This document shows, piece by piece, positions 48,382 through 52,815 of a DNA stretch of 64,000 nucleotides. Origin of the DNA: Paramecium tetraurelia (taxonomy: Eukaryota > Ciliophora > Oligohymenophorea > Peniculida > Parameciidae); NCBI RefSeq assembly GCF_000165425.1, contig NW_001799043.1, positions 1 through 64,000 on the forward strand, written 5' to 3'. How positions within the stretch are numbered: the first letter of the stretch is position 1; every line of letters starts with the position of its first letter. A model generated the notes under the pieces. The model saw nothing but the letters and a program-made list of their open reading frames with translations. It did no database searches and was not told where the DNA came from. Position numbers and translations under genes: made by a program.

Positions 48382-48823
48382 ATGCAATAATATTTAGAGG
48401 TTGGTTATGCTTTGTCAAATAGAGCCAGATGTACAGGATGCTTTTAAAATATTGCAAAAAATGAAATTAGATTTGGGCATGTTTTTGTGGCCCCAGGATT
48501 TGGATATGACAAAAAACATTGGTATCATTTGACATGTTTAAAATTCATACCAAAAGGAGATCGTAATCAAGATGTTCCTCTGATTAACATTCATTGTTTG
48601 AAATCAGAGGATCAAAAGAAAGTCCATGATAGATTAGATTTCGTTAAAAAAAACTGTGGAAAAAGTATATCATTTATATTATTATCAAGAATTTGCAAAA
48701 GAATGTAAATTAATGGAAAAGCAAGATGATCAGTGTGAATATATCAAAGCAGATAAAGACATCTTTTCAACTTTTATTAAACATATGAGACACAAATAAT
48801 AAAAGGAATTAGGAGAGTTTTGA
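48382..48823 (+). CDS. Stand-alone PARP-type zinc finger protein
   Basis: 138 aa with one 25-nt intron (48665-48689). The first 60 residues match the PARP-type zinc finger (zf-PARP): VGYALSNRARCTGC provides the first two Cys, a basic and hydrophobic middle follows (KNEIRFGHVF), and KKHWYHLTC provides His and the last Cys. The remainder is charged and helical and carries no catalytic ADP-ribosyl transferase or ligase domain. Such fingers recognise DNA nicks and ends in PARP1 and DNA ligase III. Here it may sense or mark DNA breaks, which is inference. Confidence 0.85.
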
Positions 48824-49217: not shown

Positions 49218-49930
49218 ATGAAAACTTAGTCTGTATTTACTTATTCCCTTCACACAGTCAAAGATTCCTGTCATTTTAAATTTATTAAGACAATTCAACA
49301 AAAACATAAACATTCGTTTAGTGACCTCTTTTCAAATAATCCATTAGAACAGAGCAACAAATAAAAGATAAGAAGAAAGAGTTGTTATTGTAATGAATGT
49401 GGTAGAATAAGTACATTCCAATACAAATTTATGAATCTCAAACATCAATTGCACCAAAATAGAAATCAAAGTTATACTCTACATTCTTCAAAAGAACATT
49501 TGCCAAACTAAAATAAATTCTCTATTTAGCTTCCAAGTATTTTGTTATCATTATTAAGATATTCAACATATTCGCAAAAGTTAGAGCTCTTTTCGTATAA
49601 GTAGAAAATCATTATTAAATGAAAAATCTGAAGAACAAAGATCTCCACTCATGCTATATGACTCTTTCATTTGCAAGATCTTCAATTAGTACAACCTAGA
49701 AATTATTGGAGGAAACTGTTTAGAAAAATAAAACTTTGAGACCTAGTGTTTTTCATTCTAATGATGGACCTACTCCGTTCATACTTAAATCTTAACAATT
49801 AATTACTTAACGACCTCCATAATCTGTGAGATTTACAAATACTAAAATCAAACCCCGCAACAATACGAAAAATTTTATGTCCTCTCCTTATTGGATTTAC
49901 TAAAAAACTTTCGTGTTTTACAAAAATGAA
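49218..49930 (+). CDS. Tandem CxCxxCG family, copy A (probably degraded)
   Basis: From ATG 49218 one frame runs 134 codons to TGA 49620-49622. It carries the family motif RRKSCYCNECGRISTFQYKF with Cys56, Cys58 and Cys61. Homology to copy B then continues downstream but in other frames: a 22-nt intron restores one frame for a while, and a segment near 49740-49850 (NDGPTPFILKSQQL, then VRFTNTKIK) lines up with the C-terminal part of copy B (DNPILKKFQVKQ, then FETNTKIK). The second CxCxxCG motif found in B and C is not seen. Either extra introns exist that I missed or the copy is decaying. Confidence 0.6.
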
Positions 49931-50022
49931 ACCACCTCAAATAAGCAAACACAAAAGATTAAAAACATAATGATATATCATTATAATGTTATTTTTAGTT
50001 CTTTATAATAATTATATTTTAT

Positions 50023-50916
50023 ATGTAATAATTGGATTTACCATTTGTCAGAAAACAAAAATAAAACACAGACATTTGGAAAGGCCCTAGTTTCAAGGAC
50101 TATTCATTTGAAGAAGAACGAACTTCACATATTTATAAAAAACAACATAGAAGGAAAAGTTGTTATTGTTAAATGTGTGGCAAAATGAGTCTCTTTCAGT
50201 ATACTTATATGAATGTCTCCTCTTGTGTGAATCATATCAAAGAATCTTTAATTCTCCAACAAGACATTGAAAAACAATAAGAACTTGAAAAATAGTAGAG
50301 TATTATCGACCAAAGATAATTTAGAGATAACATTAATTTATAACATAATAATAGGAGTAAATCTATAGAGTTGATCAATTCTATATTTTTGAATAATTGC
50401 CAAAGAGATAGGAATAGAAGAAGTTGTGAATGTAGTGAATGTGGAATATAGAGCACTTTCTAATAAAAATATTAAAATTTGCATTTCTTTAAAAAATAAC
50501 TACTGGCAAATCAATTTAGAATTAAAAAGATTTTAAAAAGACCTCAATACCGAAAATAGAACACAGAACAATTTTCACCCGTAAAAAATGGAGAGTTCAG
50601 ATATTTTAAAAAAAGAATGCTTGAAATAGATCTTAATAATTCAAAAAATGACAACCCTATATTAAAGAAGTTTCAAGTAAAATAACCTTAAACATAACGA
50701 GTGCTACGTCATTAATAATCATTAAATCTATTTGAAACAAATACTAAAATTAAGTTCGATATACATTCACCTATAGAAAATAAAAAACAAATACTACCTT
50801 ATTTATAATTCAATTAAAACAAAAGTCCTCCCTAAAAGAATACTAAAAAACCTACCATCACTAATCAATAAAAAGAATACTTTAAAAAACATAACTAAAA
50901 ATCTGGTATATTTTGA
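50023..50916 (+). CDS. Tandem CxCxxCG family, copy B (two motifs)
   Basis: 297 aa, single exon from ATG 50023 to TGA 50914. Two copies of the motif: RRKSCYCQMCGKMSLFQYTY (Cys47, Cys49, Cys52) and RRSCECSECGIQSTFQQKY (Cys135, Cys137, Cys140), 88 residues apart. Between them is a Gln-rich helical segment. The C-terminal half is basic, rich in Lys, Asn, Gln and Ser, and probably disordered. Three Cys per motif could bind metal as a pair or as a dimer. The family is unknown to me. It shares its plan with copies A and C on either side, so the three arose by local duplication. Confidence 0.8.
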
Positions 50917-51034
50917 TTGTAATTCATTTCTTAATTTATTTTTTCTTATGCATTTATATTTTAATAAATATAGATTTTATTTTAAAACAGTAATTAAAAG
51001 CATATTAATTTATTAAATAAACTCAGAATTCATT

Positions 51035-51922
51035 ATGTCTTCATCAAGCAATCAAAAATAAATTAAACGGAGGAACAAAAGTTACATTCATATTACAAAT
51101 CCTCAAATAACTGAATAATGGAGAGAGCGAAGAAAAAGTTGCACTTGTTTGTAATGCGGATAACTTAGCTCTCTATAATTCAAGTTTATCAATTTATAAT
51201 CACAAATTTTACATTTTTCAACAAATAAACATAAGAAATTTTAGAGTATTGAATCAACATATCTGGATTCTCAAGATACCATTATTGCAAATAATCAAAT
51301 TCATAAAAGAATCGCCAAACCAATTTAAGTTAAATAACACCATTCTAATATCAATAATATTAGTCTTATATAAACTAATTAAACCCATTTCTCTAAGAAA
51401 TAACGATCAAATAGCTGCTACTGTGATGAATGTGGAAATATTACTAAATTTTAATCATAAGCAAAGTTAATCTATACCTAATAAATAATTAAATCCAGGC
51501 ACACTAATTTTAGAATTAAAAGAAATCTGGATTAAATGTTTAAAGGAATCAGTCCAATTGAAAGAAAATAAGAATAAGAAATTGAAGAAGATGAAAATAA
51601 TCCACTCTAGCCCAATCAAATTACCTCATTTAGAAGATCATTTGTACTAATTAATTAACCTATCAAATAAATCTAAAAAGTCCAACAAGGAAGTGGAAGA
51701 AAGATTTTCCTTAGAGATGCATGTAAGACAACATTCTTCTCTAAGACAAATTCAAACAGCAGAGAATTTACAATTAAATCTGAGAGCAACAGCCCAAACA
51801 TTACAAATAAAAAATTAAATCTTCCAATTGTTAAATCATCATATAGCAAGAACAGATAAGTAAATGAAGTTCAACTTTTTAAATTTACTCCTAAATTAAA
51901 TAGTATTAATCTAATATCTTGA
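51035..51922 (+). CDS. Tandem CxCxxCG family, copy C (two motifs)
   Basis: 295 aa, single exon from ATG 51035 to TGA 51920. Motif 1 is RRKSCTCLQCGQLSSLQFKF (Cys36, Cys38, Cys41) and motif 2 is SNSCYCDECGNITKFQSQ (Cys128, Cys130, Cys133), 92 residues apart, almost the spacing of copy B. The tail is basic and Ser/Asn-rich with an acidic patch (EIEEDENN). The product has no signal peptide or membrane segment, so it is probably nuclear or cytosolic. Function unknown. The motif conservation against otherwise divergent sequence suggests selection on the Cys sites. Confidence 0.8.
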
Positions 51923-52002
51923 ATTATAGATGACTATTATTAAAATTTAATATTTATATTTATTTGATCTATTCTTTCCTTTTATTCATTCAATCATTAT
52001 TA

Positions 52003-52288
52003 ATGGAATGTGTGGAAATGGAGATTACAAGATACTATAAAATATTAGATAGTTTTACCTGGCGATTTAATTCTAAGATTATTTTATATTTTAAAAGATT
52101 CAATTGAAATCTATAATAGTCAATAGGTTTAACTAGAAGGAAGAGTTGTAATTCATAATTTTATAAATACACTAGATCTTAAGCTATAGGATTAGATTAA
52201 TTATTTCAATAATAAAAGTTGCGAACTAAGTGCATAAGTCTATTTCAATAAACACATTAAAATGATTCAATGTTTCATGAGTTTTTGA
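52003..52288 (+). CDS. Small protein with weak F-box-like start
   Basis: 87 aa if the 22-nt GTG...AAG segment 52010-52031 is spliced. The first conserved-looking block, VLPGDLILRLFYILKDS, recalls an F-box core (LP..L...IF..L), but the domain is short and the GTG donor is atypical. The rest is polar and helical (LEGRVVIHNFINTL). The stop is TGA at 52286. It could be a remnant of a longer gene. Confidence 0.4.
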
Positions 52289-52346
52289 ATAAATAAATAC
52301 TAATCCAATATTAAAATAATATAATAACATTGTAAATAGATAGAAG

Positions 52347-52815
52347 ATGATGAAAGAAAAAAGAAAAAGAATGATGTCAAATGAAGGAGTTCTAGCAGTA
52401 GTTACTGATTAAATTCTTAGGGAAAATAAACCCAAACTTAGAAAATTAACTAAAAAATAGATTTAGCAATTGAAAGAAAATAAATAAAATCAATCAGAAT
52501 CATCAATAGAGATTATTGAAAAGAAAAGTCCTTTGAAATGCTAAAAGAAGATTAAAGTTACTTAGGAGGCTTTGTAAAGATTTCTAAAGAGGACATTCAT
52601 AATTATTAGTGATGATGAGGCTGAAAACAACGAGATTAGTAATAAGAAAGTATTATTGATATGAAAATCATTAGAGCCAAGGTTAATAATAATTGTAAAG
52701 TTACTCAAGTTCAAGATCATCATCATTTTTATCATCTTCATCTAGTAGTAGTAATTTATAATAATATGAAAAAAGAGAGAAACAAATTCAATAGTTTTAA
52801 AATTATGATCGATGA
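52347..52815 (+). CDS. Small basic Ser-rich protein
   Basis: 147 aa with one 25-nt intron (52650-52674) that replaces an early stop with a Ser/Gln tail. The N-terminal part is Lys-rich and helical (LRENKPKLRKLTKKQIQQLKE). A middle patch, FIIISDDEAEN, resembles a SUMO-interaction motif (hydrophobic run then acids). The tail is a Ser run (SYSSSRSSSFLSSSSSSS). No known domain. Nuclear location is a guess from its composition. Confidence 0.6.

Follow-up and report, generated by a model that had tools for sequence, protein, structure and literature searches.

The window analysed here is a stretch of 64,000 nucleotides from Paramecium tetraurelia (G000:C90:1-64000), part of a 69.07-Mb genome in 231 contigs, which gives long open reading frames when translated by table 6, with TAA and TAG read as Gln; this code and the very short intron that is probable in gene A are in keeping with Paramecium. 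A six-frame scan of the window for C-x-C-x2-C-G, in which introns were ignored, returned exactly five matches, all on the plus strand and all within three adjacent genes that we call A, B and C (Table 1). The first Cys residues of the five motifs lie at 49383, 50161, 50425, 51140 and 51416. These are the five instances in three neighbouring plus-strand genes that the initial annotation had counted, and the distances it had given between the paired motifs, 88 residues in B and 92 in C, were obtained again. Regarding the signature that it had proposed, the tail C-G-x2-[ST]-x-[FL]-Q is present in all five instances, whereas the leading [RK]-S fits four of them and fails in C2, which reads R-S-N-S-C. 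Likewise, the three-gene extent stood as far as A, B and C are concerned, but a decayed fourth copy, the gene D relic, has to be added to the array, and gene A is probably intron-bearing and frameshifted.

Table 1. Features of the array and of its upstream neighbour (positions in the window).
Feature	Position	Strand	Basis
Small gene, stand-alone PARP-type zinc finger	48382-48729	+	zf-PARP E 1.3e-15
Gene A, one motif	49218..49764	+	paralogue comparison
Motif A, RRKSCYCNECG	49371..49403	+	pattern scan
Gene B, 297 aa, two motifs	50023..50916	+	paralogue comparison
Motif B1, RRKSCYCQMCG	50149..50181	+	pattern scan
Motif B2, NRRSCECSECG	50413..50445	+	pattern scan
Gene C, 295 aa, two motifs	51035..51922	+	paralogue comparison
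Motif C1, RRKSCTCLQCG	51128..51160	+	pattern scan
Motif C2, RSNSCYCDECG	51404..51436	+	pattern scan
Gene D relic, decayed fourth family gene with internal deletion	51921..52359	+	blastn vs C80

Specifically, gene A most likely contains a 22-nt intron at 49537-49558. The putative intron starts with GTA both in gene A and in its paralogue on contig C80; two alternative introns beginning at 49580 likewise leave the frame open. Following removal of the 22-nt intron, gene A encodes 174 residues, compared with 243 in the C80 paralogue, and the two frames are out of step from about 49665, with a one-base difference as judged by eye from the alignment. This disagreement with the paralogue implies either a damaged gene or an assembly error; gene A is probably frameshifted and would then have lost its C-terminal half, unless the assembly is wrong at this point. 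Outside the array, a further member with a single motif (RRRSCYCSECG, locus L059) is found on the same contig just beyond the window, at G000:C90:69148 on the minus strand.

Related arrays are present on contigs C80 and C161. Gene B is 57% identical to its C161 paralogue over 299 columns, and gene C is 74% identical to its C80 paralogue and 35% identical to that on C161. In both of these arrays gene D follows immediately after gene C. In the window, the gene D relic was recognised by blastn against C80, with a first block of 258 columns at 69% identity (E 7e-32) and a second, weaker block (52134-52359; 270 columns, 62%, E 9e-8), in a search in which unrelated AT-rich matches reached E 1e-5; its degenerate units were picked up by the profile too. 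All together, the C90 array consists of A, B, C and the relic of D, the C80 array of A, C and D, without B, and the C161 array of B, C and D, with no A in the approximately 1.35 kb examined upstream of B. We infer that the gene content of the three arrays is the remnant to be expected from differential loss after genome duplication.

The motif is not confined to these arrays. In the whole genome, the loose DNA pattern for C-x-C-x2-C-G gave 209 matches, compared with 37 for the reversed pattern, and R-x2-S-C-x-C-x2-C-G gave 79 (57 + 22), compared with 2 (1 + 1) when reversed, numbers well beyond those that chance would give. In the latter pattern, R at -4 and S/T at -1 were written in degenerate codes that let a few other residues pass. 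Translation was carried out for 78 of the 79 matches; the remaining one, on C205, resembles a Cys/Gly-rich run. A protein seed taken from gene A led to 38 places in the genome, and the motif was intact in all 30 of those examined. The genome contains at least 83 motif instances in 67 ORFs, a count that omits the duplicated contig C133. Fifty-two of these ORFs carry one motif and 15 carry two, at a spacing of 66-97 residues, introns having been considered in gene A only and the other ORFs taken as open frames. When the motif was masked, the 67 ORFs fell into 28 groups (blastp, E 1e-3); several members occur in clusters. We conclude that this is a real, sizeable protein family, undescribed as far as our searches reach. 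As regards the omitted contig, the 13-kb G000:C133 carries an identical copy of the two-motif ORF at G000:C12:142540 and is perhaps an assembly duplicate.

The 83 instances define the consensus R-R-x-[ST]-C-x-C-x2-C-G-x2-[ST]-x-F-Q-x4-N. Counting from the first Cys, R is found at -4 in 78 instances and at -3 in 73, and S/T at -1 in all 83 (81 S, 2 T), a constancy that is partly by construction, since a match had to contain the Cys residues, the S/T and, somewhere from -4 to -2, one R/K. Further downstream, G occupies +6 in 82 instances, F +11 in 53, Q +12 in 55 and N +17 in 45. RRx[ST] is exact in 68 of the 83, and the looser R-x-x-[ST] is present in 78. Two points go beyond the initial annotation: the conservation of RRxS/T comes close to that of the Cys core, and F-Q-x4-N forms part of the unit. 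A fourth position of possible metal ligands common to the family did not emerge, as in columns -8 to +25, the three Cys aside, Cys and His together reach at most 21 of the 83 instances in any one column. In four single-motif ORFs the three Cys of the motif are the only ones of the whole open frame, and these four do contain His. A single ORF, C53_97563, is as cut devoid of any other Cys or His; it gains more Cys if the frame is extended upstream, and its paralogue contains His. Some subfamilies have a downstream His or Cys in common, for example in KFHN and LPNQLCEIAYHK.

The conservation of the unit was also assessed by searches that do not rely on it. Queries consisting of tail sequence without the motif, drawn from three groups out of 28, retrieved 5, 3 and 4 loci, 11 of the 12 already known from the motif scans. 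All 12 retain R-R-x-[ST]-C-x-C-x2-C, and 11 of them the following G; no motif-less relative was present among these 12 loci from three groups. One locus stands outside the 67 ORFs and was detected through tail similarity alone: L084 on C46 (G000:C46:56848-57150), which reads RRSSCHCSHCS, with the Gly replaced.

Codon comparisons gave a concordant picture. In 27 paralogue pairs, dN/dS was 0.099 within the 22-codon motif and 0.201 outside it, in a data set where dS is saturated in several pairs, members of groups C4 and C67 each enter two pairs, and gene A is read through its probable intron, which puts about 28 outside codons out of frame. Both values are defined in 22 pairs, and the motif has the lower one in 20 and the higher one in two (C4/C39 and C15/C62). 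At motif codons that the search had left unfixed, dN/dS was 0.134, compared with the same 0.201 outside, and amino-acid identity was 76.5% compared with 66.8%. Purifying selection acts more strongly on the motif than on the remainder of the proteins, as the initial annotation had supposed when it spoke of selection on a small unit. Gene D adds a qualification. The gene D ORFs at C80:607421 and C161:21528 both lack two of the three Cys in their first unit, and both retain its RRxSC, G, FQ and N; between the two copies this unit is identical at 15 of 23 positions, compared with 46% across the whole alignment. As the unit has been kept despite the two missing Cys, metal binding alone is insufficient to account for the constraint.

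The remainder of the proteins looks, by composition, like the disordered, basic chain that had been suggested from the window. A charge-hydropathy line places 66 of the 67 family ORFs in the disordered range, compared with 6 of 40 other long ORFs (at least 350 residues, from the same genome pieces and not proven genes). The mean absolute net charge of the family ORFs is 0.11 per residue, and the tails are basic, with 18.3% K+R and 6.8% D+E. RRx[ST] outside the motif occurs in the tails at 1.38 per 1000 residues, compared with 0.11 in the other long ORFs; a related basic pattern is found in 27 of the 67 ORFs, compared with 28.3 in shuffles, and the excess is therefore explained by basic composition. 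A second short element, LP.[IL], occurs in the tails of 25 of the 67 ORFs compared with 6.0 in shuffles and, counted by group, in 13 of 28 compared with 5.3 (maximum 11 of 500), one of the 13 having to be discounted because the gene A instance straddles the probable intron. LP.[IL] was set aside: the element is over-represented, yet no partner can be named for it.

Comparison with known families supported the statement that the signature belongs to none with a name. In Pfam-A, no family exceeded its cut-off, where one was shown, for genes A, B and C, three paralogues and 10 subfamily representatives; the best E value of all, obtained among the representatives, was that of E2_bind (E 0.0021, 18.5 bits against a cut-off of 33.2). 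Judged by E values only, the best matches of 47 motif windows were DUF2769 (0.0069) and RecR_ZnF (0.0079). The insignificant matches of the motif are mostly to zinc ribbons and knuckles, RecR_ZnF and zinc_ribbon_6 among the ribbons. Metallothio_11 remained far below its cut-off of 27 bits both for gene C (E 0.45, 11.2 bits) and for its C80 paralogue (E 0.2, 12.3 bits). Among PDB sequences, the motif profile gave a best E of 1, to peptide:N-glycanase and over the CxxCG portion only, and the profile of subfamily A2 a best E of 0.41. The profile search that had been proposed as a check on membership of a known zinc-binding family thus returned no significant match, either for the motif windows in Pfam or in the PDB. 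Taken as a whole, the earlier reading of the motif family is partly supported.

Other candidate connections were dropped. A bacterial or plasmid origin was set aside after a pattern scan of 84,980 prokaryote genomes had confirmed no close relatives of gene B and tblastn had found no relatives of gene C in plasmids, both being weak tests in a searched set that lay outside the eukaryotes. The open-licence papers that were screened, by titles and the starts of abstracts, showed no description of the family, subscription papers and gene databases lying outside this screen. An association with a ciliary dynein light chain of Paramecium that PKA phosphorylates was abandoned, no useful paper having been found. 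The small gene upstream of gene A does encode a stand-alone PARP-type finger, whose proximity the initial annotation had thought possibly fortuitous, and this is probably so. The genome has six zf-PARP matches. Of the five elsewhere, only C12:224699 is near a family member, at about 10 kb, the others being either at least 50 kb from one or on contigs where none is known; none was seen beside the C80 and C161 arrays, in pieces that extend only about 1.3 kb upstream. We take the association as chance.

At the level of sequence, these data point to the RRxSCxCxxCG family as undescribed and possibly a metal-dependent switch or clasp. We propose, tentatively and with more doubt than confidence, that its members are disordered adaptors joined by a metal-dependent clasp, which phosphorylation of the adjacent serine would gate; we infer the metal, the pairing, the phosphorylation and the switching alike. 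Each protein would be a basic, largely disordered adaptor with one or two compact units, in which a single metal ion, most probably zinc, would be bound through the thiolates of the three Cys, in a site shaped as a C-x-x-C-G (rubredoxin-knuckle) type of turn. Since three thiolates are one ligand short, and no fourth Cys/His position is common to the family, a further ligand is expected from elsewhere. The candidates are a different chain, a second motif, a residue specific to the subfamily, an acidic side chain and water; in the arrangement that we propose, the site would be completed by a partner, through a Cys or His, or by a further copy of the motif that lies either in this partner or on the same polypeptide. 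Ligation by two chains would fit the lack of a common Cys/His column, and so would ligands that are specific to a subfamily, encoded in other exons or other than Cys and His. There are precedents in the zinc clasp of CD4/CD8-Lck and the zinc hook of Rad50, where short Cys peptides of two chains hold one common zinc, as proposed here; these differ from the Paramecium unit in spacing (CxC with CxxC, or CxxC) and in having ligands without a fused kinase consensus.

In the same proposal, the Ser/Thr before the first Cys would be the acceptor of a PKA/PKG-type kinase, with the Arg pair as its recognition site, and a phosphate so close to the thiolates would loosen the clasp or alter its shape, while the variable remainder of the proteins would house other docking peptides. 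R-R-x-S/T is the substrate consensus of PKA and PKG; it is matched exactly by 68 of the 83 units and by all 12 loci of the motif-free search. Ordinary substrates of these kinases differ in that they have no conserved Cys triad fused to the site and have not multiplied into tens of genes. Parts of the proposal could also be read otherwise: the Arg pair may instead serve to bind nucleic acid or an acidic partner, the metal site could be capped structurally by the Ser, and a His or Cys found downstream throughout a subfamily could complete the site in cis.

A plain structural zinc knuckle, folded in cis with a fourth ligand, a nearby His or Cys specific to each subfamily, is a close rival, if somewhat unlikely. 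The Arg pair and the Ser would here be no phosphosite, and would belong to the fold or bind nucleic acid or an acidic partner. C-x-x-C-G is a common zinc-knuckle turn, and the zinc ribbons among the insignificant matches of the motif windows, the downstream KFHN and LPNQLCEIAYHK of several subfamilies and the basic composition of the tails are all consistent with this reading. It is opposed by the lack of a fourth Cys/His column across the 83 instances, by the four ORFs whose entire frame contains no Cys beyond those of the motif, though His is present in them, and by the S/T, which is never replaced in the 12 motif-free loci.

The behaviour of gene D, which retains the unit without two of its Cys, speaks for a third explanation, another close rival though unlikely in our judgement, whereby the unit is a docking peptide, that is, a short linear motif for one partner fold, switched on or off by phosphorylation, the Cys contacting the partner or engaging in disulfide or redox chemistry instead of holding a metal. 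A unit of about 22 residues embedded in otherwise dissimilar disordered proteins is in keeping with such a peptide, and the over-representation of LP.[IL] supplies a second short element in the same tails. The constant C-x-C-x2-C spacing, for which the scan selected, is however more typical of metal ligands than of contacts.

This spacing has parallels in other proteins. We know of no RRxS or CG-x2-S-x-FQ in polyomavirus small T. Its C-X-C-X2-C, with the same Cys spacing as the Paramecium unit, is termed a zinc-binding domain (PMC8894888); that protein has a further zinc-binding domain, and the likeness is one of spacing, with no sequence relation claimed. In fungi, the copper-sensing CXCX4CXCX2CX2H of Mac1 contains C-X-C-X2-C, and the REP repeats of Mac1 and Cuf1 combine CXC with CX2C within short units as the Paramecium proteins do, Mac1 having two such units (PMC4992176); each repeat, however, contains five Cys plus a His instead of three Cys. 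Copper or heavy-metal sensing or storage, as by metallothioneins or these fungal CXC repeats, is nevertheless very improbable: yeast Ace1 forms its copper cluster by CXC and CX2C and the CXCX2C repeats of Mac1 sense copper (PMC4992176), but three or six motif Cys in about 300 residues would make a poor store, the metallothionein match in Pfam is insignificant, and the RRxS and FQ-N parts are left unexplained.

That tens of genes have preserved the unit, although the remainders of their proteins have drifted beyond recognition, indicates a many-membered cellular system. Should phosphorylation of the serine take place beside metal ligands, the unit would be a compact, metal-linked switch, and the motif family would offer a route to the targets of cyclic-nucleotide signalling in ciliates. 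A broader version, which we consider improbable, would make the unit a general assembly code, by which tens of disordered proteins are paired via common metal ions; a cyclic-nucleotide-dependent kinase, by phosphorylating the Ser that adjoins the first ligand, would open these pairings or alter them, and a single signal would in this way rewire many complexes at once.

As a separate observation, made by eye, a C-terminal element resembling [VI]-Y-L-x2-[ST]-P is common to the C101/C199/C165/C77 and C180/C190 subfamilies; the groups with such a C-terminus are otherwise unalignable with each other.
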